The translations under genes were made by a program, and so were the position numbers. 64,000 bases of DNA from an uncultured bacterium. GTDB taxonomy: Bacteria; Vulcanimicrobiota; Vulcanimicrobiia; Vulcanimicrobiales; Vulcanimicrobiaceae. Below, piece after piece: positions 7,825 to 33,265 of this stretch (position 1 is the stretch's first letter; each line of letters begins with the position of its first letter). The stretch lies in the NCBI GenBank assembly GCA_903829325.1, contig CAIKPM010000062.1, positions 1 to 64,000 of the forward strand. Direction: 5' to 3'. The notes below the pieces were generated by a model. That model was not told the origin of the DNA and searched no databases. It saw nothing but the letters and a program-made list of their open reading frames with translations.

Positions 7825-7830
7825 AACAGC

Positions 7831-9598: not shown

Positions 9599-9951
9599 CC
9601 TGAATTACCTCGTATTCGTTTGAAAATGGCATTCACCGAAGCACGCTGATCTTCGAGCAAACGTCGTTGCTGTTCGACGTATGTATCGAGCGGCTCGTGA
9701 TCCAACTCAGCAATCATCGTCAGGCCACTCGCACCGCCACCAATAGCAAAGTAACGAGTTCCAATGCGTACCACATGCATCATCGCTTGTTGTGAAAGAT
9801 ATGTTGTTTCAATGACGGTCACCAAACGTTGGTCAATGCCTTGGACCACGCGCTTGCGACCAAGCTGACGAGCCATCCACCACAGCCCAAAAAGCAACAA
9901 ACCGACCACGCTCAACGCATAGAGCGAGCGAGAAATAATACCAATATCCAT
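9595..9951 (-). CDS. fliO: Flagellar biosynthesis protein FliO
   Basis: 118 residues with one N-terminal transmembrane helix (SRSLYALSVVGLLLFGLWWMARQL) and a small cytoplasmic domain with the FliO-type segment TTYLSQQAMMHVVRIGTRYFAIGGGASGLTMIAELD. FliO helps assemble the FliP ring. Sequence conservation in this family is low; the call is carried by the domain pattern and by the position between fliN and fliP. Confidence 0.85.
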   Translation of the reverse strand: MDIGIISRSLYALSVVGLLLFGLWWMARQLGRKRVVQGIDQRLVTVIETTYLSQQAMMHVVRIGTRYFAIGGGASGLTMIAELDHEPLDTYVEQQRRLLEDQRASVNAIFKRIRGNSG

Positions 9952-9966
9952 GAGAACTTCTTCCGT

Positions 9967-10911
9967 CTAGCGGCTCTGGTTACTCCCAGGATTGAGTTCA
10001 CTGATCTTCACCGCGAAGCGTTCATCGACGACAACCACTTCACCACGGGCAATCAGCACATTGTTCACGTACAGATCAATCGGCTCGGTTGAGAGTCGAT
10101 CGAGTTCAAAAACGGAACCCGACTGCATGCTGACGATATCACGCAAAGGTAAAACCGCACCACCTAACAAGGCCCGCACTTGCATCGGGACATCGTGCAC
10201 CAAATCTAATGAGCCACTATTTTTCAAGTGTTCCAGATTTGGAGTCATCTGGCTGAACGCAACCGCCTGAGGTGTAACTTTTGGCTGTGCCCGCGTGGGG
10301 CGCGCCGGAGCGGCTTCGGGCGACGACTGCGCATTTGCTGCATGCGTGTCAGGCGAATCATGCTCTGAATCAACCGTTTCGGATGCTTCGGGAGCGCTTG
10401 ATTCGATCAATCCAACGCTAGCAGCGGCGATCGTGTCGAAGTCAATCGCCATGGGGATCTGCAATTCGCCTTCGACTTCGACGACCGAACTATACGAATA
10501 CAACGGTGGCTCAGACAACATCTTCGCATCGTCGCAAATCACGGCGGTAATACCGTTTGAGCTATGCCCCAGGCGAGTGGCGAGTTCTTCGGCCATCGTG
10601 GCAGCAATCTGGGACGCTATCTCACCGATCATCGAGCTACCGACATCAGCGGTTGCTCCACCACCCATCATGATCCCAACCATTTGGGTCAACGTGTCTG
10701 AATCGAACCGCACGAAAAACCGTAGCGGTCCCGCTGGAACATCCGCAACCGTTACGACCCAGCCGACATCTAAGCGCAAGGGCTCATCAGACGTGGCGTA
10801 CGTTGTTTCCCCCGCCGCTACCGTTTTGCCAAGCAGGTGGGAGACAACGGTGGCCGCCGAAGCAAACATTGCTTCTGCCATCACTGCTTGTGTACTTGCG
10901 TTCGTAGTCAC
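9967..10911 (-). CDS. fliN: FliN/FliY-type flagellar switch protein with an N-terminal CheC-like domain
   Basis: 314 residues, much longer than a plain FliN (about 130) and close to FliY. Residues 1-160 look like a CheC/FliY-type domain (LRFFVRFDSDTLTQMVGIMMGG...SSMIGEIASQIAATMAEEL). A Ser/Ala/Pro/Glu-rich linker (about 165-220) leads to a C-terminal SpoA/FliN domain (about 235-310: DVPMQVRALLGGAVLPLRDI, AVKISEL). In active CheC/FliY phosphatases the helix reads S-x3-E-x2-N. Here the asparagine position is serine (EIAS), so CheY-P phosphatase activity is doubtful. The product would form the lower C-ring with FliM. It overlaps fliM by 4 nt. Confidence 0.88.
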   Translation of the reverse strand: MTTNASTQAVMAEAMFASAATVVSHLLGKTVAAGETTYATSDEPLRLDVGWVVTVADVPAGPLRFFVRFDSDTLTQMVGIMMGGGATADVGSSMIGEIASQIAATMAEELATRLGHSSNGITAVICDDAKMLSEPPLYSYSSVVEVEGELQIPMAIDFDTIAAASVGLIESSAPEASETVDSEHDSPDTHAANAQSSPEAAPARPTRAQPKVTPQAVAFSQMTPNLEHLKNSGSLDLVHDVPMQVRALLGGAVLPLRDIVSMQSGSVFELDRLSTEPIDLYVNNVLIARGEVVVVDERFAVKISELNPGSNQSR

Positions 10912-11891
10912 AACATTTCCTCAACGACGTCCGCGACCTGAACGGCCAATTTGTCGCGGTGTACGCCGGGGTAGACATGAAATTTTTCGCAGCCGTTGAC
11001 GTACATCGTGAGTGGCTTGCTAGCCTCCGTATCGAAGATCAAGACATTGCCTTCTTGCAAGGTCACCAGATCGCGCAGGGAGACGTTGGTGCGGCCCAAT
11101 TCGATTTGTACGTTGACATCAGCTTTTTCGACGCTTGTCGCCAAAGCAGCTTTGTCATCTTCCGTGAGGGTGTAACCAGAGATTACGCTAGGTGATAACT
11201 GAAAATCAGAGAGTTGATTCCCAATACTCTGTACTACGGCATAAGGGATACAAAAATCAAGTGTCCCAACCGCATCATTGATACGAAATTCGCAAGATAT
11301 AACCGCAACCATATGTTCAAGCGGCATAATACGCGGGATAAACTGAGGATTTGAGTCAATCGCCTCGATTTTGAACGACATCGTCAACAGATAGTTCCAA
11401 GCCTCACGATATGTATTCAGGAGACGCGTTAAGAACCGCGTCGCGAGTGTACGCTCGATATCCGTCATATCGCGAATTTTCTTCGGTAGCCATCCGGGTC
11501 CACCCAAGAGTCGATCGATAATCGAAAACATCAGCGCAGTCTCTGCCTTTAACATCCCACTGCCTGGCAAAGGGTCCATCGAAAATATCGCGAGGACATT
11601 ATTGGTATCAGCACTTGCAATGAAATCGCTGAAAGCGACTTGCTCTAAATGGGTGATCGTAGCCTCAACCCGCGTCCGCAGATAGAGCGAGAGCGCATTA
11701 TTGAGCAGGCGGGTAAAATTGTCGTGGAGCATACGCAACGTTTGCAGCTGCGACCCACTGAATTTCTCGCTCCGCTTCTGATAGCGAAAGTCAAAATCTT
11801 TGATCTTCCGCTTCGATAATGCCGCGCTTTCTTCAGGATCATGCAGGGAATTGACAAGCGCATCAATTTCTTCTTGCGACAGCACAGACAT
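10908..11891 (-). CDS. fliM: Flagellar motor switch protein FliM
   Basis: A 327-residue C-ring protein. It starts with the CheY-P binding motif SQEEIDALVNSL. The middle domain contains NNVLAIFSMDPLPGSGML and LGGPGWLPKKIRDMTDIE (CheC-like fold). The C-terminal SpoA domain (ADVNVQIELGRTNVSLRDLVTLQEGNV) pairs with FliN. The length is normal. It lies 36 nt after motB with no FliL gene between them, and its stop overlaps the fliN start. Confidence 0.96.
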   Translation of the reverse strand: MSVLSQEEIDALVNSLHDPEESAALSKRKIKDFDFRYQKRSEKFSGSQLQTLRMLHDNFTRLLNNALSLYLRTRVEATITHLEQVAFSDFIASADTNNVLAIFSMDPLPGSGMLKAETALMFSIIDRLLGGPGWLPKKIRDMTDIERTLATRFLTRLLNTYREAWNYLLTMSFKIEAIDSNPQFIPRIMPLEHMVAVISCEFRINDAVGTLDFCIPYAVVQSIGNQLSDFQLSPSVISGYTLTEDDKAALATSVEKADVNVQIELGRTNVSLRDLVTLQEGNVLIFDTEASKPLTMYVNGCEKFHVYPGVHRDKLAVQVADVVEEML

Positions 11892-11927
11892 CTTTGTACG
11901 ACTCTTCTCTTCCTCAAAACGACGGTG

Positions 11928-12842
11928 TTAGGGACGGGTGTTCATGATGACGATATCCACCCGGCGGTTGAGTTGACGATGAATCGGGGTATCGTTTCCA
12001 ACCGCTGGCTTGAATTGTCCATGGCCAACTGCCGAAAAGCGACGCCCGTCGAGATGTTCATGTTCTACCAAGAACCGTGTTACTACGACCGCACGCGCTG
12101 ACGATAGTTCCCAATTACTAGGGTATTCGGCAGTTTCGATCGGAACATTATCAGTATTGCCTTCAATTCTTATATCATTTGTGATGTTGCCCAAAAAAGC
12201 CGAGATTCGGTGCAGTAACTGGAGCGTCTCGGGCCTGAGTTCCGCACTGCCACTGTTGTAGTTCGCACTATCACTCAACAAGCTAATCACCAGACCCCGC
12301 CCCTCGAGGTGGACATGCACCTTCTGCTGCATCTGCGTGGCCTTGACGACTGCCTTGATCTTCGCTTCCAGCGCTTTGGTAAGCGGAGCAGGCGTTGTGG
12401 CCGGAGCCGGAGCGGCTGTCGGAACAGTTGTCGGAACAGGTGAGCTCGGCTGGCTGGGTTGGCTCGGAGGATTCAGGGCTTTGGTATTCTCGGTCGAGGT
12501 TGAATATTTTAGGTTCGCGGTGTTTGGAGTCGCCGCTTGCCCCGTAATATTCGAAGCACCGGCCGACCCACTACTAGGCACATTGATCGCGTTCGTCCCG
12601 CCAAAGCCTCCCGACATCGCCCTGGCCAACTGGGCATACTTCACTTTATTTGGCGTGGAGATCGCGAAGAGGATAATAAACAGAGCTAGCAGCAGCGTAA
12701 TCATGTCGGCATAGGTCAGCAGCCAGCGCTCAGAGCTGCCCTCTTCTGCGTGTCCGTGCTTCTTTTTTTTCAGCCGTGATTCATGAACATGCACGACAGT
12801 CTTGCCGGCCGCTGCCGCACGACCGCCATGCGATGGGGGCAT
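11928..12842 (-). CDS. motB: Flagellar stator protein MotB (OmpA-like peptidoglycan-binding)
   Basis: 304 residues. A basic cytoplasmic N-terminus (SRLKKKKHGH) precedes the single transmembrane helix RWLLTYADMITLLLALFIIL, where Asp46 is the expected proton-binding residue. A long Ser/Thr/Pro/Ala-rich linker (about 90-165) is followed by an OmpA/MotB domain (about 185-300) with IEGNTDNVPI and SSARAVVVTRFL. It anchors the stator to peptidoglycan and works with MotA, encoded 2 nt upstream. Confidence 0.95.
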   Translation of the reverse strand: MPPSHGGRAAAAGKTVVHVHESRLKKKKHGHAEEGSSERWLLTYADMITLLLALFIILFAISTPNKVKYAQLARAMSGGFGGTNAINVPSSGSAGASNITGQAATPNTANLKYSTSTENTKALNPPSQPSQPSSPVPTTVPTAAPAPATTPAPLTKALEAKIKAVVKATQMQQKVHVHLEGRGLVISLLSDSANYNSGSAELRPETLQLLHRISAFLGNITNDIRIEGNTDNVPIETAEYPSNWELSSARAVVVTRFLVEHEHLDGRRFSAVGHGQFKPAVGNDTPIHRQLNRRVDIVIMNTRP

Positions 12843-12844
12843 CC

Positions 12845-13693
12845 TTAGGCCCCCACAGCTTCAACGGTTGCGGTTCCATTGCCGGCAGTCGCAGCTTCAA
12901 TAGCAGGCTCATCCGCTTTGATCGCCTTGGGATCCAGATAGGCGTAGAGTTTTTCTTCCAAGAGCCGAGGATTATCCCCAGCCTGAACAGCGAGGATGCC
13001 CTCGATCTCGATCTCGCGCATAAGCATCATGTGCGCATTACGTTGCTTGAGCCGATTCGCAAATGGCAGCCAAACGACATTGGCCAGCAAGACACCGAAG
13101 AAGGTTGCGATAAACGCAGAAGCGGTCGCATCACCGAGTTTACCAGCGACGTCACCGCTTTGACTAAAATCGCCCAGCTTGCTCAACATCGCAATCAGGC
13201 CGAGAACGGTTCCAATAATACCCATGGTAGGCGAGAAACCACCCATGGTAGTAAAGAGCAGCTCTTCTTTTTGAGCGCGCTCACCGACAAAACTCACTTC
13301 TGTCTCTAAAATCTTCCGAATCACGTCGGTATCGCGACCATCGATGACTAACTGAATGCCTTTGCGCAAAAAGGGATCATCGATCGTATTCGCCTCGGCT
13401 TCAAGAGCGAGTAAGCCTTCACGCCGTGCCTTTTCTGCAAATGTTACCAAAGTTTTAATGAGCACATGGGGGTCTTCTTTTTTCGAAACAAAGACATGCA
13501 CAATGCCTTCACGCGACGCTTTCAAAAAGATGTCCAACGGAAAGGAAAGGGCCGTTGCCCCCAATGTTCCTCCAATAATAAGAATGATAGCGCCCAAATC
13601 CAAAAACATCGCGCCATTAACACCCATCAGCACTGCCGATGCGATCACGACACCAATACTCAGGACTATTGCACCTATCGCGCCAATATCCAC
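12845..13693 (-). CDS. motA: Flagellar stator protein MotA
   Basis: A 282-residue inner-membrane ion-channel subunit of the stator. The start is the GTG at 13691-13693 (MDIGAIGAIVLSIGVVI), preceded by AAGGGA. Four membrane segments lie near 5-25, 30-50, 150-170 and 185-205; the large cytoplasmic loop (about 60-145) carries the acidic and basic residues that touch FliG. The conserved FTTMGGFSPTMGIIGTVLGLI segment is present. The gene is separated from flbD by a 77-nt gap that holds a strong hairpin and a mini-ORF whose stop lies 9 nt before this GTG. Confidence 0.95.
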   Translation of the reverse strand: MDIGAIGAIVLSIGVVIASAVLMGVNGAMFLDLGAIILIIGGTLGATALSFPLDIFLKASREGIVHVFVSKKEDPHVLIKTLVTFAEKARREGLLALEAEANTIDDPFLRKGIQLVIDGRDTDVIRKILETEVSFVGERAQKEELLFTTMGGFSPTMGIIGTVLGLIAMLSKLGDFSQSGDVAGKLGDATASAFIATFFGVLLANVVWLPFANRLKQRNAHMMLMREIEIEGILAVQAGDNPRLLEEKLYAYLDPKAIKADEPAIEAATAGNGTATVEAVGA

Positions 13694-13702
13694 ACTAATC
13701 CC

Positions 13703-13735
13703 TTACTTTCCGTTGCCGCCCAGGCATGGTAACAT
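13703..13735 (-). CDS. Possible 10-codon leader peptide in front of motA
   Basis: ATG at 13733-13735 reads MLPCLGGNGK and stops with TAA at 13703-13705. A textbook Shine-Dalgarno AAGGAG (13742-13747) sits 6 nt before the ATG, better than the site of motA itself. The mini-ORF is in the same frame as motA and ends 9 nt before the motA GTG. It may be a coupled leader peptide, or the remnant of a longer MotA start closed by a stop codon. No homology can be claimed for 10 residues. Confidence 0.35.
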   Translation of the reverse strand: MLPCLGGNGK

Positions 13736-13755
13736 CTTTCTCTCCTTGTTATCGG

Positions 13756-13786
13756 TTCATCAGGCTCTGATTATGAGCCTGATGAA
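13756..13786 (-). promoter_or_regulatory. Perfect 12-bp hairpin spanning the end of flbD
   Basis: TTCATCAGGCTC (13756-13767) and GAGCCTGATGAA (13775-13786) are exact reverse complements separated by 7 nt. The flbD stop codon (TAA, 13771-13773) sits in the loop. On the transcribed strand it is followed by ACCGATAACAAGG and not by a T-run, so it is not a standard intrinsic terminator. It could be an RNA stability, processing or attenuation element between the flgE-flbD and motAB parts of the operon. Confidence 0.7.
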
Positions 13787-13971
13787 ACTTCTGCGAACAG
13801 CGAACGCCGAAAATCGACAACCGCTTGTTGGACATCCGCAACCGATTCACGGACGATAAATTTATTTCCCGAGGTAAGGGTGATCATCGTATCCGGAATT
13901 GGTTCGACAAATTCGATCAAATCCGAATTAACAACGACCATCTTGCCATCAAGCCGATGCAAAGTAATCAT
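13771..13971 (-). CDS. flbD: Flagellar protein FlbD family (small, swarming-linked)
   Basis: 66 residues matching the short FlbD family, found between flgE and motA in Firmicutes and many other phyla. The start MITLHRLDGKMVVVNSDLIEFVEPIPDT and the segment TLTSGNKFIVRES are the hallmark (I-x-L-T-x-L/H-D/N-G, N-x-D-L-I-E, D-T-x-I-T-L-x-x-G-x-x). A role in swarming or motor function is reported for the family but the mechanism is unclear. This is not the sigma-54 activator of the same name from Caulobacter. Confidence 0.88.
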   Translation of the reverse strand: MITLHRLDGKMVVVNSDLIEFVEPIPDTMITLTSGNKFIVRESVADVQQAVVDFRRSLFAEVSSGS

Positions 13972-13983
13972 TCATTCATCATC

Positions 13984-15468
13984 TTATTGAATCAACTGAT
14001 CAATCGCTTGCAAGTCTTGATTGCCAATCGTAATAGATTTGCTATTAGCAATGTAAGCATTTTGCGCCACAATCAACTTCGAAAATTCGGTTGCGATCGA
14101 CACATTCGATTGTTCTAATGAATCTGAACTAATCGTCCCAAATGGCCCGGAGCCTGCAGTCCCGATTTGCGCAAGCCCTGTATTGACAGACGACGTATAC
14201 ATGTTAGCCTGACCAGCGACTAAGCCCTGAGGATTTTCAAACGTCGCTAATGCAACCTGACCGAGCGTTTTCTGCAACCCATTACTGAAAGAACCGGTAA
14301 TCTTGCCGTCTTTACCAATCTGAACGCTCGATAACTCGCCCTGGGGGAAGCCGTTTTGACTTAACGTGGTCACCGCCTCACCAGCTCCGGAAAGCGAGGT
14401 TAAGTTGGAAAAACCAATCCCAATCGCTCCAGTTTTCGCCGTTGAACCAGTGCTCCCATTAGCGGTTGGAGCAGTCGCATTATTGTTGCTCCCCCAAGAA
14501 GTGACATCCAGGACATCGCCAGCGGCAGTTGAGGGAGTGGCGCCAAGCGTGTGAACGGTGGAGCCAGCGACGGAATCAGCGGAGGTATTGATAAATTGTC
14601 CATTCGCGTCGAAATACACGTACCCGACCGTAGCCGATGAGCCAGTCGTTGTTCCGTTCGACACTTGGGTGCCATCCGCAAACGACGCGCTCACCTGCCA
14701 TTCGGTCGCAGCCTGAATCGCCGTACCCGAAGCATTCTTTACGCTTGGCAACGAAGTATTAACAACAGGACTATACGTCAGCGTGAGTTGGTGAGCTCCA
14801 CCCAAAGAATCATACACGGTGGTCGTGGTAACTTGTGGGGTTGACACGCCGCCATTGGCCGCTGTTACCCATTGACTTTGATCAAGATTTCCCGATGCGA
14901 GCATATCGAACACGCTGTCACTCGCGGACGGTCCTGTCTTGGCGCCAAAGCCTGTGCCAATCGCCTGGGAAACTTGCCCTACTGGGACATTTAAGCTCGT
15001 CAAAGCACCGTTGGGAGTAATCGCACCAGCGGGAGACGCCTGGTACCCCTGCACCACCATTCCCGTCGCAGCATTCACCAAATAACCATCTTGATTAATC
15101 GAAAAATTTCCATCACGGGTGTACTGCGGAGTTCCATCTGAACCCAGCGTGTTCATGACGAAGTAACCAGTGCCATCGATCGCCAAATTCGTCGAAATAC
15201 CAGTGGTTTGAAAAGCACCCTGCGTTTGATCGGTAGACATGGAGCCGACTTTGACGCCGTTACCTTCTTGAATGGGATCACTGCCACCATTCGTACTGGT
15301 TGGCGATGTCGCCGCATGCAGAGGATCATAAAATGCTGACTGTACCAGCATCGTTTGCGCTTTGAACGCTGTTGTGCCCACGTTGGCTACATCGTTGCTG
15401 ATAACGGCGATCTCTGATTGATAGACCGACAACGCCCCAGCCGCAATACTTAGCATATCGCCGCCCAT
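13984..15468 (-). CDS. flgE: Flagellar hook protein FlgE
   Basis: 494 residues from the ATG at 15466-15468, chosen because AAAGGA sits 6 nt upstream and the protein then begins MGGDMLSIAAGALSVYQSEIAVISNDVANVGTTAFKAQ, the normal rod/hook N-terminus. The frame is open 16 codons further. The N-terminal heptad region, the FlgE D1/D2 core with Gly/Ser/Thr-rich segments (about 150-400) and the C-terminal coil (EQSNVSIATEFSKLIVAQNAYIANSKSI) are all present. It builds the universal joint outside the cell. A GCCGATAT box lies about 145 nt upstream. Confidence 0.94.
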   Translation of the reverse strand: MGGDMLSIAAGALSVYQSEIAVISNDVANVGTTAFKAQTMLVQSAFYDPLHAATSPTSTNGGSDPIQEGNGVKVGSMSTDQTQGAFQTTGISTNLAIDGTGYFVMNTLGSDGTPQYTRDGNFSINQDGYLVNAATGMVVQGYQASPAGAITPNGALTSLNVPVGQVSQAIGTGFGAKTGPSASDSVFDMLASGNLDQSQWVTAANGGVSTPQVTTTTVYDSLGGAHQLTLTYSPVVNTSLPSVKNASGTAIQAATEWQVSASFADGTQVSNGTTTGSSATVGYVYFDANGQFINTSADSVAGSTVHTLGATPSTAAGDVLDVTSWGSNNNATAPTANGSTGSTAKTGAIGIGFSNLTSLSGAGEAVTTLSQNGFPQGELSSVQIGKDGKITGSFSNGLQKTLGQVALATFENPQGLVAGQANMYTSSVNTGLAQIGTAGSGPFGTISSDSLEQSNVSIATEFSKLIVAQNAYIANSKSITIGNQDLQAIDQLIQ

Positions 15469-15613
15469 AGAAATCCTTTCACCCGAAGCTAGCGATCCAC
15501 CATGCGCGTCGTTCATTCAGCACCGGTGCAAGAACTTCCGAGATGAGCAGATTGCCCATACCAAGATCCATTCTCAACGAAATACCAACGTATCCCGTGT
15601 ATCGCTATGCCTT

Positions 15614-15621
15614 ATATCGGC
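15614..15621 (-). promoter_or_regulatory. Sigma-28-like -10 box (GCCGATAT) upstream of flgE, weak -35
   Basis: The minus strand reads GCCGATAT, identical to the sigma-D/sigma-28 -10 consensus, in the 231-nt gap between the TIGR02530 gene and flgE. At the proper distance (15 nt) there is only TTGA instead of TAAA. It could be a weak internal promoter for flgE and downstream genes. The rest of the gap shows no gene. Confidence 0.35.
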
Positions 15622-15699
15622 AATAAAATTGGAGAATCAAGAGAAAATGATGGGTGCCTCGAAAAATATATCAGCACGTACACCCTAAAAAATTGAGCG

Positions 15700-16134
15700 T
15701 TAGACGATGGCTGCAGAGTCAATATTCGTAAAAATATGTTCGCGCATCGAAGCTTCGTCCATCGCCGTGATCACTACACGGTTTTTGACGCTGACCAACA
15801 AACCAGTTTGCTGTCCTTGAGCAGATTTGACCAACAAGACCGCCTCACGACCGCCTTTGCTCGCAATATTTTGCACCGCATTCGTGATGCGACCCAACTC
15901 TTCGGGCGTAAATTGAATGCCGCGCGATTGTAAACGCGCTTGGGCATGCGCAGAAAACGCCAACGGAACCGTTGTGACGGCTGCCGCTGCGGACTGATCT
16001 TGGGTTTGACGCAGGATATCACGAAAACCAGCACCGGCGCGCGACGGCGTAATGACATTGGCCACATCACGCACGGGTAACGTCGCAGAAATATCTTCGC
16101 GACTGTCAAGTCTCGGTGTCGGCGCAGAATCCAT
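15700..16134 (-). CDS. Flagellar operon protein of the TIGR02530 family
   Basis: 144 residues. The C-terminal half (about 50-140: FSAHAQARLQSRGIQFTPEE, LLVSVKNRVVITAMD) is the TIGR02530 pattern, a small conserved protein encoded between flgD and flgE in Firmicutes, Thermotogae and related lineages. Its biochemical role is unknown; a helper for hook assembly is inferred only from gene order. The N-terminal 45 residues are low complexity. It starts 3 nt after the flgD stop. Confidence 0.8.
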   Translation of the reverse strand: MDSAPTPRLDSREDISATLPVRDVANVITPSRAGAGFRDILRQTQDQSAAAAVTTVPLAFSAHAQARLQSRGIQFTPEELGRITNAVQNIASKGGREAVLLVKSAQGQQTGLLVSVKNRVVITAMDEASMREHIFTNIDSAAIV

Positions 16135-16137
16135 CTT

Positions 16138-16614
16138 TTACCCCGAAATAGAAACGATCTGCGACCCGCTAAACTTTGCGGGCGCACCCGTTGTTTGATC
16201 AGTAATGGGATTGCCGCTGCTATCCTTCAGCGTAAACGCTGGAATTCCATTCGTGACGGTTACTCCGGATACGACGCCGGTCACATTGCTGCTGTTACCC
16301 GTCGTTGCTGTAGAGCCGGCAACGGTTACCGTTTTCCCGATCATTGAAGCGGATTGCACCACGCCGAAGTTTTGCTGGAAGGTCGAAAACGATGACTGCA
16401 AATTCGTCGACGCTTGCAATTGAGAAAATTGCGCCAATTCAGCAACCGATTGCGTATCATCGATTGGATTGAGTGGATCCTGATTTTGCAACTGGGTCGT
16501 CAACAAATTGAGAAATGCATCAGGCCCGAGACTCGATAAACCAGCTGACGAACTACTAGTCCCACTAGCGGAGGCTGCACTCGTGGCAGAAGATGCGGTC
16601 GAAGATACGCTCAT
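16138..16614 (-). CDS. flgD: Flagellar hook assembly (cap) protein FlgD
   Basis: 158 residues, short but within the range for FlgD. A Ser/Ala-rich N-terminus precedes the diagnostic [36 protein letters not shown] (about 33-68). The remainder ([32 protein letters not shown]) is the Tudor-like part. The FlgD Ig-like domain seen in longer members appears to be missing. It caps the growing hook and lies between fliK and the TIGR02530 gene. Confidence 0.93.
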
Positions 16615-16629
16615 AGAAGCCTGCTTTCC

Positions 16630-18174
16630 TTAAACAAGTTGATTGAGTAACTGCATATTGACGCTGCCTAACAGCGACGGTCCACTCGTGGGTTCAGAAA
16701 GCGCCTGCTCTGGAGTGGCGCTTATACCGAGACCAGCGTTCGCAGCCAACACCTCCTGGCGTTGGGCCTGGCGGCGATCGGCTTCTTGTCCTAATCCCTG
16801 GCCACTCAAATCAACCGTCAGGCTACCGAGCTTGAGACCAGCTTGGGCAAACACAGTGCTTAGTTGGTTCTGTTGATCGAGCAGCAACGAACGCACGGCA
16901 CCCGATTGAGTCACGACATTCGCGCTAACGGTGTTGTCGTTGACCGTAATTTTCACCGATAAGGCCCCTAAATGCGGGGGATTCAAGGAAATTTTCACGG
17001 TGGGATTATCAGTGAAATTTTTTATTGAGAGTCCCGTGACGACCTGGTCCATAACATCATCAACATTCATGGGGCTCTGAGCCGAAGCGACACTCGCTGC
17101 AAAACTCGTTTGGCCAGTATTTTGGCTCGCACTACCGACCAAGCCGAGCGCGCTCTGGGCGAGACTCGTATCCGCACTTTCAGGTGCGGCCACCGCCGAT
17201 ATGGGGCTCACAGCGCCGCCTACGCTCGCAACACTCGAGCTACTCGCGAATGCTTCTTCAAGACTTGCGCTCAAAGACGCTAAACTGGTTTCGAGTTGGT
17301 TACTCAAACTTGCGGCCGTTCGCGCAACATCAACATTAGCCGCACGCAAAAGCGCGCGTTCTAAGGCCGTTCCCTGACCAGCCGCGATACTGCCTAAATC
17401 GGTGCTCACGTGTAATCCAGACGATGCTGGCGTCGATGGCGATTCTGACGAAGCTCCTAAAGAAGCTTGGCCCAAAGTCTGGGGCTGGCTCGTAGCTGAC
17501 TCAGGAGCGCTCGCCGCTGCGCCCGACGGTGGCGCTGGTGCAACCGTCGCGGCTGTACTCGCCGCAGGTGCATTTGAGCTATGCGTTGCCGCAGCACTCG
17601 CACTCTGTGCTTGTAAAGCCGCCAACGCAGTGCTAAAAGCATCGCTCCCAGTTGAGGAATTCGGCGTTGGCACGGTGGTGGTCGGAGTATTTTGAGCGGC
17701 ACTCAGCAAGGCCGTTGCATTCACTAAAGGGACCATCGGGCTTGATGGCTGTTGGAGAGCACTGAGGAGCGTCTTTATTTTTTTCAGGAGGTCTTTCGCC
17801 GTCGTGGCGGGATCCTGACCATCGTGCTCACCCTGGCGGAGATAATTTGCAACCGCCTTCACTTGCACACTGGAACTCGAGGCATGCGTTCCACCCGCGA
17901 TTTGGAGTAACTGACCGGCGATCGTTGTGGTTAGTTGATCAATCGAAACGCCACTGTGCAATAATTGCGTCAACTGCTGCAAAAGCGTTCCGCTCGCACT
18001 TGTACTAGCGCTTGCGCTCGATGCGGCATTTTCCGTAGAGTTGCTCGCAACCGAAGCTTGGGTCAAGAGCGACAAGAATCCGTCAGCGCTCTGCCCATCA
18101 AGAGCGGCGCCTGACTGCGACGTAGCTGAAGTGCTATTGGTCTGCACTCCTGTCCCTAATGCATGTATTGCCAT
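16630..18174 (-). CDS. fliK: Flagellar hook-length control protein FliK
   Basis: 514 residues, dominated by a Ser/Ala/Thr/Pro-rich ruler region (about 1-380). A conserved C-terminal Flg_hook domain (about 385-480: FTDNPTVKISLNPPHLGALSVKITV...VRSLLLDQQNQLSTVFAQAGLKL) contacts FlhB to switch export specificity. AGGAGG (18181-18186) precedes the ATG. A sigma-28-type promoter sits immediately upstream at 18194-18221, so fliK and later genes may have their own start. A second FliK-type protein is encoded at 28818-30209. Confidence 0.9.
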   Translation of the reverse strand: MAIHALGTGVQTNSTSATSQSGAALDGQSADGFLSLLTQASVASNSTENAASSASASTSASGTLLQQLTQLLHSGVSIDQLTTTIAGQLLQIAGGTHASSSSVQVKAVANYLRQGEHDGQDPATTAKDLLKKIKTLLSALQQPSSPMVPLVNATALLSAAQNTPTTTVPTPNSSTGSDAFSTALAALQAQSASAAATHSSNAPAASTAATVAPAPPSGAAASAPESATSQPQTLGQASLGASSESPSTPASSGLHVSTDLGSIAAGQGTALERALLRAANVDVARTAASLSNQLETSLASLSASLEEAFASSSSVASVGGAVSPISAVAAPESADTSLAQSALGLVGSASQNTGQTSFAASVASAQSPMNVDDVMDQVVTGLSIKNFTDNPTVKISLNPPHLGALSVKITVNDNTVSANVVTQSGAVRSLLLDQQNQLSTVFAQAGLKLGSLTVDLSGQGLGQEADRRQAQRQEVLAANAGLGISATPEQALSEPTSGPSLLGSVNMQLLNQLV

Positions 18175-18193
18175 ACTCGGCCTCCTGCACTAG

Positions 18194-18221
18194 CTATCGG
18201 CCAAACAATACCAAATCTTTA
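18194..18221 (-). promoter_or_regulatory. Sigma-28-type promoter upstream of fliK
   Basis: The minus strand reads TAAAGATT, 12 nt, GCCGATAG, i.e. TAAA-N16-GCCGATAG. This has exactly the same geometry as the sites before fliF and cheR and fits sigma-28/sigma-D (TAAA, 14-16 nt, GCCGATAT/A). The TAA stop of the upstream ylxF-like gene (18219-18221) forms part of the -35. The predicted start falls right before the fliK ribosome site, giving a very short leader. Confidence 0.72.
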
Positions 18222-18833
18222 CAAGATTGGCTTCGCGTAGGAAAGATGCACCGCTTGCAGTTTCACGTTATAATCAGCAGGTAGCGCATTCATGATCTCG
18301 GCAACTTGATCGGGCTTCATTGCGAGAAAAATACGCGCCGTTTCACTCGGATCAAGTTTTTGGGCAACCGCGGCTGCGTTCTCAGCTTCCATCGAAGCCC
18401 AATATGCTGCAGTCTGGCTCTCATCTGGTGAAGGCGTCATTTGCACTAAAGGAGCGTCGCTGCCACCAACCACTCCGCTGAGCGCAACAGCCGCCGGCGT
18501 TGCAGTGGGTGCCGCCGCCACGACAGGCACGACACGTTGCGCAGGCTTCTTGGCAATACGCGCATTGACCAGACCATTCTTGGTATGGGCTGCGGTACTC
18601 GGAACTTGCAAAGCCAAAAGCTCTTTTTTGAGAGCAATAATTTCTTGATTGCGATCGTTGAGCTTTTTGGTCAAATCAGCCACAGCTAATGGGGAGCACC
18701 ACTGTTCAGCCAACTGCCACATCGGTTTAAGGGGGCCTGAGAAAATCAATTTCTGCGTGACGGGGATACACATCAACACATAAACAATGCCCAGCACAGC
18801 AGCAAACTTTGCCACATTTTTCACGAATGCCAT
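18219..18833 (-). CDS. YlxF/MgtE_N-like flagellar cluster protein
   Basis: 204 residues. An N-terminal transmembrane segment (FAAVLGIVYVLMCIPV) is followed by a short coiled coil (LTKKLNDRNQEIIALKKELLALQ). An Ala/Pro/Val-rich linker leads to a C-terminal MgtE_N-like bundle (about 140-200: AAYWASMEAENAAAVAQKLDPSETARIFLAMKPDQVAEIMNALPA). Proteins of this build sit between fliJ and fliK in many flagellar operons (YlxF in Bacillus) and are thought to be export or motor accessory proteins, possibly MotE-like FliF chaperones. Its start overlaps the end of fliJ by 13 nt. Confidence 0.78.
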   Translation of the reverse strand: MAFVKNVAKFAAVLGIVYVLMCIPVTQKLIFSGPLKPMWQLAEQWCSPLAVADLTKKLNDRNQEIIALKKELLALQVPSTAAHTKNGLVNARIAKKPAQRVVPVVAAAPTATPAAVALSGVVGGSDAPLVQMTPSPDESQTAAYWASMEAENAAAVAQKLDPSETARIFLAMKPDQVAEIMNALPADYNVKLQAVHLSYAKPIL

Positions 18834-19294
18834 GATGTCTCTTTCTTCACAGAATGAAAATCGCCGTGCATACGCCGACTATTCGCTTCATCTAAATCGG
18901 CGTGCTCGCGGCGCAAGGTTTCGGCCGTGTGTTCGGCTACACCGCGCTCTTTGAGCGTCTCAAGCATACGACGATGCTTGCTAGCTTGTAGTAATTCAGC
19001 ATGAGCCGCAGCGTGTTCTAAGCTCATGGTCAATATGTTCATCTTGCGCGTTTGAATCGAGCGTGCAAGAAAATCAATCCGTAGATAAAAACGCCGTAAT
19101 TCGTCATGGTCTAAGTTCTGATGCGATTGGCACAAGGTATCACTCACCTGCGCGCATTCAAGTTCGATTGCCGCTAAAGCAATTTCTTCCGCCGTTAAAC
19201 GGCGCTGAACTGCGGCAAAGCGCTGCTGAGCCTCGCTCTCCAGCCGTTCACGATGCTCTAATAAGCGAGCCAGGCGAAATGTATAGCGTTTCAT
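18821..19294 (-). CDS. fliJ: Flagellar export protein FliJ
   Basis: 157 residues predicted as a long antiparallel coiled coil, beginning MKRYTFRLARLLEHRERLESEAQQRFA, the usual FliJ start (F-x-L-x-x-L-L-x-x-R). FliJ is the central stalk of the FliI ATPase ring and escorts chaperones. Sequence identity in the family is low; the fold and the position directly after fliI (4-nt overlap) make the call firm. Confidence 0.88.
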   Translation of the reverse strand: MKRYTFRLARLLEHRERLESEAQQRFAAVQRRLTAEEIALAAIELECAQVSDTLCQSHQNLDHDELRRFYLRIDFLARSIQTRKMNILTMSLEHAAAHAELLQASKHRRMLETLKERGVAEHTAETLRREHADLDEANSRRMHGDFHSVKKETSWHS

Positions 19295-20604
19295 GCAGCG
19301 AGATCCGCAAGCATCGATAAGGTCTCATCAAAACTCGCTTGCTCATTGACATCTTGCCGTAAGAAGGCTCGGATATACTCGATTTTCGAGATCGCTTTAT
19401 CAACCTTCGGATTACTGCCCGCTACATACGCACCAATATTGACCAGATCTTCCACTTCACGATATGACGCCAGCATGTCTCGGACAGCCGCAGCGTACAG
19501 GCGATGTTGTTCGGTGGTCACATCCGGCATTGAACGGCTGACGCTCTGTAAGATATCGATTGCAGGGTAGTGATTCGCGCTCGCCAAGGCACGCGAAAGC
19601 ACGATATGACCATCTAAAATAGAGCGAACCGAATCGGCAACCGGCTCGTTCATATCATCACCATCGACGAGAACCGCATAGAGCGCCGTAATGGTCCCAC
19701 GGGTTGAGGTACCAGCCCGTTCGAGTAGCTTTGGTAACAGCGCGAAAACCGAAGGCGTATAGCCACGGGTTGTCGTTGGTTCGCCAATCGCTAGACCAAC
19801 CTCGCGTTGAGCCATCGCAAAACGTGTCACGCTATCCATCATCAACATGACATCTAAGCCTTGATCCCGGAAATATTCCGCAATCGTGGTTGCAACGAAG
19901 GCAGCCTTAATCCGCACTAACGCTGGCTGATCACTCGTAGCAACAATTACGACACTACGGCGCAGGCCTTCTTCACCCAAATCACGTTCGATGAAATCAA
20001 GGACTTCTTTGCCGCGCTCACCGACCAGGGCAATCACATTGACATCTGCCGACGTATTGCGAGCGATCATCCCCAACACGGTCGACTTCCCGACGCCACT
20101 GCCGGCAAAAATACCAACCCGCTGCCCCTTGCCGCACGTTAAGAGTCCATCGATCGCGCGAATACCCATCGTCAACGGAATATGAATACGTGAACGCCGC
20201 AACGGATCGGGTGGGTTTGCCGTAATGAGGGCATGACGATCGATGGTCAGGGGGGGGCCGTCATCAATCGGTCGGCCCAAGCCATCCAAAATGCGCCCGA
20301 GCAATCCCCGTGAAAGGGGCACATCCAAGGGTTTTCCTAAACTTTGCACCTCTGAGCCCGCACCGATGCCGGCTAAATTGCCAAGCGGCATCATGAGTAC
20401 CTTATTGTCGCGAAACCCAACCACTTCGGCGAGAACGGGCTCAGCTGAACGCTTATAACGAATTGCACACGTCTCGCCGACCGCCATCGCGGGTCCGAGA
20501 CTCTCGATCACCACACCAATAACCTGACGAACCTTGCCATATTGCGGCATAAGATCGACTTCGCGCAACCGCCCTAAGACGGGATCCGCGGAAAACGTCA
20601 ACAT
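19291..20604 (-). CDS. fliI: Flagellum-specific ATPase FliI
   Basis: 437 residues, normal length. Walker A GSGVGKST at 168-175, Walker B-type LDVMLMMDSVTRFAMAQREV, and the FliI/SctN motif GEPTTTRGYTPSVFALLPKLLERAG. It is a cytoplasmic hexameric ATPase that drives unfolding and delivery of export substrates with FliH and FliJ. It overlaps fliH upstream by 7 nt and fliJ downstream by 4 nt. Confidence 0.97.
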   Translation of the reverse strand: MLTFSADPVLGRLREVDLMPQYGKVRQVIGVVIESLGPAMAVGETCAIRYKRSAEPVLAEVVGFRDNKVLMMPLGNLAGIGAGSEVQSLGKPLDVPLSRGLLGRILDGLGRPIDDGPPLTIDRHALITANPPDPLRRSRIHIPLTMGIRAIDGLLTCGKGQRVGIFAGSGVGKSTVLGMIARNTSADVNVIALVGERGKEVLDFIERDLGEEGLRRSVVIVATSDQPALVRIKAAFVATTIAEYFRDQGLDVMLMMDSVTRFAMAQREVGLAIGEPTTTRGYTPSVFALLPKLLERAGTSTRGTITALYAVLVDGDDMNEPVADSVRSILDGHIVLSRALASANHYPAIDILQSVSRSMPDVTTEQHRLYAAAVRDMLASYREVEDLVNIGAYVAGSNPKVDKAISKIEYIRAFLRQDVNEQASFDETLSMLADLAA

Positions 20605-21374
20605 ACGGGTGATTCATCCGTTTCATCAAGGCCCAGCACGCGCTGAGCTTCTTCGAGTTGGGTTGCAATGCGAGCATCGATCATGCCACTTTCGGTTTCG
20701 AAAATGACTCCACCATGATCAACCCGCGCATCGGCAATCACACGAACTTCTCGAATATCACCCAAGGCCAACATATCTTCGCGGTGGGCCCGCATGCGAT
20801 CAAGGTCTTGCGCATTCACTCGAATCGTCACACGATCACGCTCAACCAAACGCTTGATCGCTGCGCGCGCAACACAAACCACAACTTCTGGGTCATGCGC
20901 AATCTGCTCGTGCACAATGCGCTCTGCCAAGGCATAACTCAAACGAATAATTTCTTTTTCTGCAGCCTCAATCACCTGATGCCGTTGAGCCAAAGCTGAT
21001 GCGACAATACTCTGCATCGTCTCACGCGCCGAACGCAGTTCATCTTCAATCAACGCCAACGCTTCGGCCCGACCGACCGCGGCGCCATCGGTGCGGGCCC
21101 GCTGCTCTAATTCCTCGACCGCATCGTGCGCTTTGACCAGCAACTGTTGTGCTCGCCGATGCGCAGAATCAATAATGGCGTAAGCATCACTGCTCGCTTG
21201 ATCAACCAAACGGCTCGACTCGGTAACGATCATGTCGAGATCAGGTGTCAGCTCCAGTGCACCATGTTGCGCGGGCAAAGCCACGGGCTCTTCCAAGAGA
21301 TTCAGGCGCACTCTGGGTGCCGAGAGCTGATAGGTTTTGAGCGGCTCTTCCGTCGTTTGGACGACTCTGCCCAT
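20598..21374 (-). CDS. fliH: Flagellar assembly protein FliH
   Basis: A 258-residue regulator of FliI. A long helical, charged region (about 45-140) contains the repeated small-residue pattern expected of FliH. The C-terminal domain (about 140-250: ALAERIVHEQIAHDPEVVVCVARAAIKRLVERDRVTIRVNAQDLDRMRAH...GGVIFETESGMIDARIATQLEE) is the conserved FliH/YscL/V-ATPase E-like part. It links the ATPase to the C-ring. It begins 2 nt after the fliG stop. Confidence 0.93.
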   Translation of the reverse strand: MGRVVQTTEEPLKTYQLSAPRVRLNLLEEPVALPAQHGALELTPDLDMIVTESSRLVDQASSDAYAIIDSAHRRAQQLLVKAHDAVEELEQRARTDGAAVGRAEALALIEDELRSARETMQSIVASALAQRHQVIEAAEKEIIRLSYALAERIVHEQIAHDPEVVVCVARAAIKRLVERDRVTIRVNAQDLDRMRAHREDMLALGDIREVRVIADARVDHGGVIFETESGMIDARIATQLEEAQRVLGLDETDESPVC

Positions 21375-21376
21375 TC

Positions 21377-22459
21377 TTACACCAACTGCTCATCGAGAGA
21401 ACCGCGGGTGATTTGAATTTCACCGCTGTCTTCTAGTGCACGAACAACATCAACAATCGCGCTTTGCGCTTTACCAACATCACGCATGCGGACTTTGCCC
21501 AAGACTTCGATATCATCGCGCAGATTTTCAGATGCGCGTTGGGACATATTTTTATAAATCTTGCTGAGCAGCTCTTCATTGGCGGTTTTGAGTGCCAACG
21601 CCAGGTCTTTGCTGTTGACTTCTTTGAGAATCCGTTGAATCGCACGATCTTCCAAGCTGGCGATATCTTCGAAGACAAAGAGCAGATTTTTCACTTCTTG
21701 AGCCAGATCAGGATCACGCACTGAGAGACCTTCAAGAATATTCTTCTCGGTTTCTCGGTCAACGTAACCCATGAGCGTGGCCAAGGTCTGGACGCCGCCT
21801 TCTTTCGAATGATCGGAGTGAGAAATCAATAATCTTCTCCCTAGTAATTCATCAAGCTGTTCGAGCACATCCGGTGCTGTCTGCTGGAGAAGGGCAATAC
21901 GCATCGCAACATCCGCCTGCACATCAGGCGAGAACGAAGACAGCACTTGACCAGCCGGCTCGGGATCCATATAGACCAAAATGAGCGCAACCGTCTGAGG
22001 GTTTTCATTTTGAACGAACGTGATCAGCTGTGCTGGTTCGATGCGTTTGACAACGGCTAACGGTAAGCCACTCCCCAAACTCGCAAAGAGCCGCGCCGTC
22101 ATCGACTCAGCTTCGTTGCTGCCTAAGGAACGCTCGAGAATCTCTTTTGCGTACTCGATACCGCCTTCGCGAACATATTTCAGTGCAACGGCACGTTGGT
22201 ATGCCTCTGCGATAACCGCATCACGCTTGGCAATCGAAACCGTTTTAATGCGGGCAATCTCAACAACAATTTTTTCAGCTTCATCGTCACGGAGAAACTT
22301 AAAGATATTCGCCGAAACGTCAAGACCAAGCGTAACGAGCAAAACCGCTGCGCGTTCTTCACCGCTCATTGTCGCCAACATCGCCTTATGACTATTGTCA
22401 GGTGCGACCAGGTGACTTCTCTCGTGCTTCGGTTCTTCTGCGTGTGTTGATTCGCTCAT
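21377..22459 (-). CDS. fliG: Flagellar motor switch protein FliG
   Basis: A 360-residue rotor protein that joins FliF to FliM/FliN. There is an extra charged N-terminus of about 25 residues, then SGEERAAVLLVTLGLDVSANIFKFLRDDEAEKI (FliG_N), the middle domain with ENPQTVALILVYMDPEPAGQVLSSF (EHPQ-type FliM site), and the C-terminal domain with LFVFEDIASLEDRAIQRILKEVNSKDLALALK, which carries the torque helix. It lies 6 nt after fliF. Confidence 0.97.
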   Translation of the reverse strand: MSESTHAEEPKHERSHLVAPDNSHKAMLATMSGEERAAVLLVTLGLDVSANIFKFLRDDEAEKIVVEIARIKTVSIAKRDAVIAEAYQRAVALKYVREGGIEYAKEILERSLGSNEAESMTARLFASLGSGLPLAVVKRIEPAQLITFVQNENPQTVALILVYMDPEPAGQVLSSFSPDVQADVAMRIALLQQTAPDVLEQLDELLGRRLLISHSDHSKEGGVQTLATLMGYVDRETEKNILEGLSVRDPDLAQEVKNLLFVFEDIASLEDRAIQRILKEVNSKDLALALKTANEELLSKIYKNMSQRASENLRDDIEVLGKVRMRDVGKAQSAIVDVVRALEDSGEIQITRGSLDEQLV

Positions 22460-22465
22460 GGTATA

Positions 22466-24130
22466 TTACTCCGCAATCCAAATCTTTAGTAGCTTGGCGA
22501 TATTATCCGGACTTTCTTGAGCAACACTCGCCACATACTCAATCATCTGCTCACGGGTGATCTCATCCGAAGTCAGGACCGGACCACCTAGCGCGGCGCC
22601 GTCATCCATATACGCATCACCCTGCAAGGCGGGAACCTCGCTCGCATTCAAGCCTGGATCAAAGGAACCGAAGTCACCATCAACCTCGTTATCGAGGCCC
22701 AAGTGCGGATTACGACGCCGCATCGAAACCACGACGATCCCAACCAGCGTCAAGCCAACAATCACGGCAACCGCAATCACTGCCCATATTGGGAGCCCAA
22801 AGACACGGGTGGTTGCGGTACTCGAAGTGTCAACAAGTACTGCAGGATTAAACGGAATCGCTTCGACCGAAACCTGATCACCATTCGCTAAATTCAATCC
22901 AGCAGCCGCAATCACGATATTTCGGATTTGGGTAACATTCGCGGCGTTGAGGACATACGGCTTCGCGCTTTTTCCGTCAGCACTGACAGGCGGAACACCG
23001 GTATTCATCAAGACCGCAACGCTGGTATGATTGACTTTACCAGGAACGTTTACATGTTCGCGATGGACAACACTAATTTCATTATTACGCGTTAGTTTGC
23101 TGCGTGTATAATTACCGCTACCATTTTGTGAACCTTGATACGAACCAATGTTACTCGTCGTACCAGGAACACCAGCTGCAGCTTTACCACCACTGCCGCT
23201 ATATTTTTCTTTTTCTGTTTGCTCAGACCGAGTAACGGGATCTTTCGAATACTCGTCACTCTTGACCGTCTCAGAATCAAAATTCATGTCGGTTGCCACA
23301 CGCACCGCAACATGTTTCGGCCCTAAGGTTGAATCTAAAAGCGATTGGATGTTGGCCTGCAGGTTGGTTTCATAGCGCTGTTTGGCAATCAGTTGATCCT
23401 GAGTTAATTTCAAGGCTGACTCAGCGCTATCTTCACCACTCGAGCCACCTTCAGGTATCAGCATGATGCCATCTTGATTGACAATCGTCACTTGATCTGG
23501 CTTGAGGCCTTCCACCGCGCCAGCAACTAATTGCACGATCCCGCGCACTTCTAGCGGCGTTAAGCTCTCGCCGGGTTTGGTCGTCACGGCGATCGATGCC
23601 GTAACGGGCGCTTGGGTTTCGGTATATAAGCTTTGATCGGGTGAAGCAATATGCACCCGAGCAGCTTCAACTGGGTTTAAGCCGGCGATCGTTCTCTGGA
23701 GTTCGCCTTCAATCGCGCGGGTTTTATCGAGTTTTTCTTCAAAGTCGGTCATCCCAAAGTTCATGCGATCAAAAAGTTCGTAGCCAGTCCCACTGCCACG
23801 CACAATACCAGCACCAGCCAGCGAAATACGTTCTTCAGAAACCATATCGGATGGCACACGGATCGTCGTTCCACCGTCATTGAGCGTATAGGCAACTTTA
23901 TCGTCTTTAAGTTTTTGGGTAATAGACGAGGCCTCTTGCGCTGACAGATTCGAAAAAAGCGTGCTGTAATCAGCACTTTTCACGAGCGAGATCATCCCCC
24001 AAATTGCAACAGTCATGGCTAATGCGGCAGCGATCCCACCGATAACCATCTTTGTCTGACGCTGTTGACTGGCCCATAAGGCCATGAACCGGGCGGAAAT
24101 CTCCGACCATTGTCCGATGATGCGATCCAA
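22466..24130 (-). CDS. fliF: Flagellar MS-ring protein FliF
   Basis: 554 residues from a TTG at 24128-24130, chosen because AAGGGG (24138-24143) lies 7 nt upstream and the protein then starts DRIIGQWSEISARFMALWASQQ; an ATG 23 codons upstream has a poor context. Transmembrane helix 1 is at about 30-50 and helix 2 near 460-482 (IWAVIAVAVIVGLTLVGIVV). Between them are the YscJ/FliF ring-building domains (DYSTLFSNLSAQEASSITQKL, MNFGMTDFEEK). The FliG-binding tail at the C-terminus contains REQMIEYVASVAQESPDNIAKLLKIW. It is the first gene of the cluster, preceded by a sigma-28-type promoter. Confidence 0.95.
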   Translation of the reverse strand: MDRIIGQWSEISARFMALWASQQRQTKMVIGGIAAALAMTVAIWGMISLVKSADYSTLFSNLSAQEASSITQKLKDDKVAYTLNDGGTTIRVPSDMVSEERISLAGAGIVRGSGTGYELFDRMNFGMTDFEEKLDKTRAIEGELQRTIAGLNPVEAARVHIASPDQSLYTETQAPVTASIAVTTKPGESLTPLEVRGIVQLVAGAVEGLKPDQVTIVNQDGIMLIPEGGSSGEDSAESALKLTQDQLIAKQRYETNLQANIQSLLDSTLGPKHVAVRVATDMNFDSETVKSDEYSKDPVTRSEQTEKEKYSGSGGKAAAGVPGTTSNIGSYQGSQNGSGNYTRSKLTRNNEISVVHREHVNVPGKVNHTSVAVLMNTGVPPVSADGKSAKPYVLNAANVTQIRNIVIAAAGLNLANGDQVSVEAIPFNPAVLVDTSSTATTRVFGLPIWAVIAVAVIVGLTLVGIVVVSMRRRNPHLGLDNEVDGDFGSFDPGLNASEVPALQGDAYMDDGAALGGPVLTSDEITREQMIEYVASVAQESPDNIAKLLKIWIAE

Positions 24131-24237
24131 AATCAAACCCCTTGAACGAGCCGTGTGGAACAATTTCCACCTAGGCTTATCGCATGCCGACCATGGCAAC
24201 GCACCCGAACATCCTTGCTCGACGCTCCTATCTTCGG

Positions 24238-24265
24238 CTATCGGCGCTCAGAGGGTGAAGCTTTA
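24238..24265 (-). promoter_or_regulatory. Sigma-28-type promoter upstream of fliF
   Basis: The minus strand reads TAAAGCTT, 12 nt, GCCGATAG. The -10 differs from the sigma-28 consensus only at the last base, and TAAA-N16 is inside the range known for sigma-D. The TAA stop codon of the cysteine dioxygenase gene (24263-24265) is the start of the -35. It would drive the whole fliF-flhB cluster. The leader to the TTG start would be about 100 nt. Confidence 0.75.
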
Positions 24266-24877: not shown

Positions 24878-24987
24878 GATTACCAAGAACTTTCTTGCCG
24901 GGCGATCACTCCACCAAGAGTGAGCACCCTCTTCTATTGAAATCGGTATAAAAGCGCCAGAATCAACGTATAAAGAACAAATTTGTC

Positions 24988-30213: not shown

Positions 30214-31062
30214 TCATCCTGAACTAATCGTATTCATGCGCGCGCCTAAGGGAGGAGCATTCTTACGAACGTATTTCTGCTTAATGGTGGGATCGCCGTC
30301 GCGATAACCAAGATCACCGCGCAAGACGCGCAATTTCTGACGCAAATGAATCACGGCTTGTGCATGAATCTGCGAAACGCGCGATTCAGAAACGTTTAAA
30401 ACAAGCTTAATTTCTTTGAGCGTCAGCCCTTCGAAATAATAGAGTGAAATCACGGTCCGTTCTTGAACGGACAATTGATCAACCGCCATACCGAGCGTAT
30501 TGGTAACTTCATGCGATTCAACCGCATCGGCGACACTACCATCGCCATCGCGTAGCGTCTCGATCAAAGAGACTTCGTAACCTTTCTCATTCGGCAAATG
30601 ATCTTCGAGTGAGAGTAAGGCTGTGCCACGAATTTTTTGCATCAATGAGTCGAGTTCTTTGACGCTCACACTCATGCGATCGGCAATTTCTTCATTGGTT
30701 GCCGGACGCCCTAAAGAGCTTTCGATGTCCTGAATCGTGCGATCTAACTCACGAGCACGTTGGCGAATCGCCCGCGGCACCCAATCCAACGCCCGCAATG
30801 CATCGAGAATAGCTCCATTAATACGGGTAATCGCGTACGTTTCAAATTTCACACCGCGCGAATCATCATATTTTTCGATCGCATCAATGAGGCCAAGGAT
30901 GCCATCATTAATTAGATCATTCAATTCGACGTTGGGGGGTAAATTCACCGATACACGCCCAGCAACATATTTCACCAAATGGAGATACTTATGGACGATC
31001 TCCTCGCGATTCAACTCCTGACCGGCGATGATATATCGTTGCTGTTCTCGAGCTACCTTCAC
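30214..31062 (-). CDS. fliA: RNA polymerase sigma factor FliA (sigma-28 / WhiG family)
   Basis: 282 residues from a GTG at 31060-31062 with GAGG 7 nt upstream. Region 2: EIVHKYLHLVKYVAGRVSVNLPPNVELNDLINDGILGLIDAIEKYD...VKFETYAITRINGAILDALRALDWVPRAIRQ, where WVPR is typical of FliA/WhiG. Region 3 has LGRPATNEEIADRMSVSVKELD. Region 4 has LSVQERTVISLYYFEGLTLKEIKLVLNVSESRVSQIHAQA. It should read the sigma-28-type promoters at fliF, fliK and cheR. No FlgM anti-sigma gene is in the window. It is preceded by a GC-rich structured gap. Confidence 0.95.
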   Translation of the reverse strand: MKVAREQQRYIIAGQELNREEIVHKYLHLVKYVAGRVSVNLPPNVELNDLINDGILGLIDAIEKYDDSRGVKFETYAITRINGAILDALRALDWVPRAIRQRARELDRTIQDIESSLGRPATNEEIADRMSVSVKELDSLMQKIRGTALLSLEDHLPNEKGYEVSLIETLRDGDGSVADAVESHEVTNTLGMAVDQLSVQERTVISLYYFEGLTLKEIKLVLNVSESRVSQIHAQAVIHLRQKLRVLRGDLGYRDGDPTIKQKYVRKNAPPLGARMNTISSG

Positions 31063-33237: not shown

Positions 33238-33265
33238 GTATCGGCTTAAAGCGGGTGATCCCTTA
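33238..33265 (-). promoter_or_regulatory. Sigma-28-type promoter upstream of cheR
   Basis: The minus strand reads TAAGGGAT, 12 nt, GCCGATAC: TAAG-N16-GCCGATAC, with the same geometry as the fliF and fliK sites. The TAA is the ribD stop codon (33263-33265). The leader to the cheR ATG would be about 60 nt. It would place the chemotaxis adaptation genes under FliA and also give FliA autoregulation, if the transcript reads through. Confidence 0.65.

Follow-up and report, generated by a model that had tools for sequence, protein, structure and literature searches.

Conserved sigma-28-type promoter and structured RNA leader with a predicted CsrA-like hairpin upstream of fliF in Eremiobacteria

In the textbook scheme of flagellar regulation, the basal body is built first under one regulator, and the filament follows under sigma-28. 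The sigma-28 consensus of Escherichia coli and Bacillus subtilis reads TAAA-N15-GCCGATA. Among catalogued RNA elements, the TwoAYGGAY motif of Rfam consists of two hairpins with ANGGA-like loops. In B. subtilis, the fla/che operon has a promoter, PD3, which is accessory to its sigma-A promoter and without influence on expression (PMC4793158). The flaA leader of Campylobacter jejuni contains two hexaloop hairpins with GGA cores 21 nt apart, close to the 18-nt optimum for one CsrA dimer (PMC4894983), and the loops recognised by RsmE are of the type A(N)GGAX with a closing C-G pair (PMC4005645).

The locus described here lies in a window of 64,000 nt from contig C62 of a metagenome-assembled genome (MAG) of the class Eremiobacteria (1.89 Mb, 96% complete). 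An alignment with relatives ([AGT]TGGATCG) gives the TTG at 24130-24128 as the probable start codon of fliF, and the gene is followed by a long run of flagellar genes reaching to flhB (Table 1). A cysteine dioxygenase (CDO)-like gene stands between purA and fliF in this genome, whereas the frame directly upstream of fliF in relatives is about 405-450 aa long and ends elsewhere relative to the -35 box. The minus strand carries the sequence TAAAGCTTCACCCTCTGAGCGCCGATAG at 24265-24238, with the layout TAAAGCTT-N12-GCCGATAG. Its boxes correspond to a sigma-28-type promoter with a -35 TAAA (24265-24262), a spacer of 16 nt and a -10 GCCGATAG (24245-24238). The cognate sigma factor, FliA, is encoded in the same genome.

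Table 1. Coordinates of the fliF promoter, the fliF leader and associated genes and sites in the window.
Feature	Position	Strand	Evidence or remark
fliF (MS ring)	22466..24130	-	PF01514, PF08345; first gene of the fliF-to-flhB run
Downstream run: fliG, fliH, fliI, fliJ, MgtE_N-domain protein, fliK, flgD, TIGR02530, flgE	within 6679..22459	-	Pfam/NCBIfam
Downstream run, continued: motA, motB, fliM, fliN/Y, fliO, fliP, fliQ, fliR, flhB	within 6679..22459	-	Pfam/NCBIfam
Sigma-28-type promoter, fliF	24238..24265	-	Exact match; position kept in relatives
TAA stop of the CDO-like gene, coinciding with the fliF -35 box	24263..24265	-	ORF 24263-24886
Conserved fliF leader element (covariance model R1)	24180..24226	-	R1 match, 44.6 bits; this sequence belongs to the R1 training set
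Hairpin 1, GCGUCGAGC-AAGGAU-GUUCGGGUGC	24201..24225 (hexaloop 24216-24211)	-	Stem covariation
Hairpin 2, UGCC-AUGGUC-GGCA	24185..24198	-	Invariant GCCANGGYNGGC
Internal sigma-28-type site before fliK	18194..18221	-	Exact match
Sigma-28-type site before cheR-cheB-fliA	33238..33265	-	Match with TAAG
fliA (sigma-28)	30214..31062	-	TIGR02479, 252.6 bits, above cut-off

A chance match of so short a pattern would be in keeping with its genome-wide frequency. The bare TAAA pattern is not enriched in this genome (8 matches against 9 for a reversed control), and the case for a promoter therefore rests on position and not on counting. A first-pass annotation of this DNA, made from the sequence alone, had named equal density before unrelated genes as the finding that would speak against a promoter; this applies in part to the bare pattern, but not to its conserved position. 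Within the window, TAA-N17-GCCGATA occurs exactly at three sites and with up to one mismatch at nine, where 2.85 are expected and none of 100 shuffles reaches nine. When spacings of 8-21 nt were scanned in the window, TAA[AG] and GCCGATA were found together three times at N16 and never at 8-15 or 17-21. Of the four TAAA-N16-GCCGATA sites in the whole genome, three stand before genes for flagella or chemotaxis, namely fliF, fliK and a cheY-like gene on contig C56, where the site falls between flhA and the cheY-like gene. On the minus strand of contig C18 (10853-10878; L002 1501-1526), TAAAGTTT-N11-GCCGATAG, the genome's most canonical sigma-28 promoter, stands ahead of a gene whose 291-aa product has no Pfam match.

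A search of 117 genomes of the class gave FliF relatives in 48, and 47 fliF upstream regions were compared. A perfect TAAA-N15/16-[AGT]CCGATA is present in 27 of the 47 regions (0.01 expected from Markov-resampled sequence), and 31 contain it with no more than one mismatch (0.13 expected by the same resampling). These elements are located 70-160 nt upstream of fliF, and matches at this position are weak or missing in the lineages g24, g26 and g11. Such position-specific conservation, together with the confinement of the window matches to N16, makes a chance origin of the fliF site scarcely conceivable, and the comparative sequence data can be taken as having already refuted it. The sigma-28-type promoter proposed by the first-pass annotation is strongly supported, because its position is conserved in most flagellated members of the class and because it is present here despite a different upstream gene. 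One locus (L014, genome G010) is the only one of the 47 without both the sigma-28 site and the leader described below; CsrA and FliW are kept in that genome.

The fliF site had also been grouped with the sites before fliK and cheR on the basis of a common 28-nt geometry and of a -35 box starting with the TAA stop of the preceding gene. For this genome the description is accurate, with exact coordinates, one geometry and the stop codon at the -35 box in all three cases (24265-24263 at fliF). Neither property extends to the class. Relatives use both N15 and N16, which rules out a fixed 28-nt geometry, and among the 31 fliF sites with up to one mismatch only that of this genome overlaps a stop codon, so that a functional overlap as a general feature was rejected. 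At fliK, several relatives retain the -10 box and N16 in the corresponding position, with the -35 box being degenerate. The cheR site is not conserved in relatives and was discarded as a conserved promoter; fliA is located downstream of cheR and cheB, and this site, if active, could thus feed back on fliA. The earlier reading as a whole is therefore partly supported: the promoter is borne out, a special role of the stop codon, a fixed geometry and a conserved cheR site find no support, and both the leader and the spacer longer by one base had been missed.

A flattened flagellar hierarchy, with early genes under sigma-28, had been suggested from the fliF site, and this view gains support from the promoters of relatives. 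The same element precedes flgB in G006 and flgF in G020 (both genes named from their sequences, not by family search), and flagellin in two relatives has TAAA-N15-GCCGATA 70-75 nt upstream. Thus, judging from these sequences, sigma-28 appears to serve both early and late flagellar genes in the class. FlgM (PF04316) was detected in 5 of 27 genomes, among them the g26 lineage, which has no good sigma-28 site at fliF. Since this family is short and its detection patchy, the absence of FlgM was set aside as proof of a missing checkpoint.

It is possible, if rather doubtful, that the fliF site acts as an auxiliary booster, with most fliF mRNA coming from an unrecognised sigma-70 promoter or from purA/CDO read-through. 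Such an arrangement has a precedent in PD3, a minor sigma-D promoter in front of the fla/che operon in B. subtilis (PMC4793158). It would also suit the lineages which keep the leader without a recognisable sigma-28 site at fliF, and it would avoid the need of a pure sigma-28 circuit for FliA before fliF. However, the sigma-28 site is near-perfect in most members and represents the sole recognisable conserved element upstream of the leader, which speaks against a merely auxiliary site.

Between the -10 box and the fliF start, 46 of the 47 fliF loci share an element of about 47 nt with two hairpins. The stem of hairpin 1 shows compensatory changes in all eight pairs (36 sequences), and 90% of its cells pair. 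The covariation score of the whole structure is 0.382 against 0.214 for shuffled alignments (0 of 500), and it falls to 0.16 or less when the partners are slid by 1-3 columns. The hexaloop of hairpin 1 contains GGA in all 46 leaders, and together with its closing C-G pair it reads CANGGANG in 41 of them, including this genome. Hairpin 2 has the consensus GCC-ANGGYN-GGC (GCCANGGYNGGC) with consensus positions identical in 46 of 46 leaders, so that no covariation is available in its core, and its loop carries GGY, never GGA. The GG cores of the two hairpins are separated by 21-26 nt (mode 23), the distance from the beginning of hairpin 2 to the fliF start is 31-70 nt, and neither hairpin overlaps the Shine-Dalgarno sequence. 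The minimum-energy fold lacks hairpin 2 in some genomes (L016, L112, L117).

No genome has more than one strong match to the covariance model, and all such matches precede fliF; in this genome the fliF match is the single one. As the matched loci are largely in the training set, the informative part of this search is the absence of other strong copies elsewhere in the genomes. No Rfam family corresponds to the leader, either in the window at the gathering threshold or in 13 fliF loci, including this one, at E values up to 5; the few low-scoring matches in these loci belong to other families and are all below their gathering scores. The leader is a previously uncatalogued, clearly covarying structured RNA.

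By its predicted structure, the leader looks like a docking site for CsrA. Hairpin 1 presents ANGGA in an apical hexaloop closed by C-G, and apical hexaloops of the form CANGGANG are sites of high affinity for CsrA/RsmE. The hexaloop of hairpin 2 would be within reach of the same dimer, but has GGY in place of the GGA that forms the core of CsrA sites. The fliF leader has no site that overlaps the Shine-Dalgarno sequence, a layout typical of repressed CsrA targets although not universal. The flagellin leaders of relatives contain ANGGA sites (L119, ~9040-9120; L120, ~9862-9942), one of which overlaps the Shine-Dalgarno sequence (A[CU]GGAGGA) in the classic CsrA/FliW layout. We consider it unlikely that the hairpins of the fliF leader serve a partner other than CsrA, such as another RNA-binding protein or a riboswitch ligand, with the GGA likeness being incidental or half the story. 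The invariant stem and loop of hairpin 2 with its GGY would fit such a partner, as would the retention of the leader in a MAG where no csrA was found, whereas the CANGGANG hexaloop and closing pair of hairpin 1 on a freely variable stem are as in CsrA sites, and no Rfam riboswitch matches the leader.

Of 41 relatives, 32 encode CsrA, among them some that gave no full-length FliF match, and 15 encode FliW, which tracks the presence of the fliF operon. In the relatives G006 and G020, fliW and csrA are located between flgL-like and flagellin genes, just before flagellin. None of csrA, fliW, flagellin and flgI was found in the MAG studied here. Since these four genes adjoin in relatives, one missing or lost locus explains all four absences, and the CsrA step may not operate in this genome, unless the csrA locus is merely missing from the MAG.

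Outside the class, fliF loci from the rest of the phylum showed no leader and no good sigma-28 site upstream. As read from the sequence, the stretch before fliF there resembles the last part of a preceding flagellar gene, for example fliE or flgC. In G006, fliE belongs to a separate rod-gene cluster. Based on these comparisons, the promoter-leader arrangement looks like a class-level innovation made when fliF gained its own transcription unit.

Other FliF-like genes are present in this genome and its relatives. A second, divergent flagellar-type export gene set (L056 921-8307; contig C18, ~19.9-27.3 kb) encodes a rod-like protein, a FliF-like protein (PF01514), a FliH-like protein, a FliI-type ATPase, a transglycosylase-like protein and a hook/rod-like protein, the names other than FliF being read from the sequence. 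The third YscJ/FliF-domain gene of the genome is found on contig C62 (80575-80898; L052 16575-16898) in a 492-aa frame. Nearly all relatives searched have FliF-like proteins of about 430-630 aa, and many of these relatives lack the main fliF operon, which suggests that a secretion system independent of flagellin may be common across the class.

The reading that we favour, and regard as fairly probable as a whole, is a functional FliA promoter for the fliF-to-flhB run coupled to a two-hairpin leader controlled by CsrA and FliW. The sequence supports the promoter by its match and conservation, and the leader by hairpin covariation, loop identity and the co-occurrence of CsrA and FliW in relatives; from these we infer FliA dependence, the start site, CsrA binding, the direction of its effect and the link to FliW. 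FliA polymerase would transcribe the basal-body, export, motor and hook genes of the run from a start about 7 nt after the -10 box, near 24231, producing a fliF mRNA leader of about 100 nt which would fold into the two small hairpins. Their hexaloops, CANGGANG and CANGGYNG, 21-26 nt apart, would be bridged by one CsrA dimer bound strongly at hairpin 1 and more weakly at hairpin 2, and once bound, CsrA would make the fliF mRNA less well translated or less stable. Export of flagellin would free FliW, which would then remove CsrA and relieve the mRNA. The main doubts about the CsrA mechanism concern the GGY of hairpin 2, the distance to the Shine-Dalgarno sequence and the csrA gene missing here.

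A wider model is conceivable, although we place it somewhat short of probable: the early/late order would be collapsed in the class, with rod, MS ring, export gate, motor and filament all under sigma-28, and CsrA/FliW would also gate the MS-ring mRNA, by way of a leader RNA that is specific to it and has not been described before, providing late-to-early feedback. If so, stalled flagellin export would stop new basal bodies from being started, and this feedback would date from the time when fliF became a transcription unit of its own. This almost uncultivated class seems to place basal body and filament alike under sigma-28 and to have a CsrA-type RNA switch on the first structural gene, so that in Eremiobacterota the base of the motor may be subject to both of the controls usually associated with the filament. 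This bears on how the order of flagellar assembly is enforced and on the range of CsrA/FliW targets outside flagellin, and since the leader is a new covarying RNA absent from Rfam, the idea can easily be tested in vitro. Titles and abstracts of the open-licence literature (CsrA/FliW and fliF, sigma-28 and fliF, Eremiobacterota flagella) contained no description of this promoter-leader pair.

The fliF leader resembles the TwoAYGGAY motif in having two hairpins with ANGGA-like loops, but it has one GGA loop only and a fixed fliF context, and the TwoAYGGAY covariance model gave no match in the window (gathering threshold) or in 13 fliF loci (E up to 5). With the C. jejuni flaA leader (PMC4894983), it shares two adjacent hexaloop hairpins with an ANGG core at a comparable spacing (21 nt there, 21-26 nt here), as well as compensatory changes and the presence of FliW and CsrA genes in relatives. 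In contrast to that leader, it precedes fliF and not flagellin, its second loop is GGY, and the Shine-Dalgarno sequence is left uncovered. The promoter contains both boxes of known sigma-28 (FliA/SigD) flagellar promoters, the -35 TAAA and the -10 GCCGATAA; FliA is encoded nearby, and the flagellin promoters of relatives are textbook TAAA-N15-GCCGATA. It differs from these promoters in driving an MS-ring/export operon, in a spacer which is N16 as well as N15 in the class (here exceeding the E. coli/B. subtilis consensus by one base) and in the first base of the -10 box, which is A, G or T in Eremiobacteria fliF sites. It resembles PD3 of B. subtilis as a promoter of the sigma-28 class that precedes an early basal-body operon, but unlike the accessory PD3 it is conserved across its class and coupled to an RNA leader.
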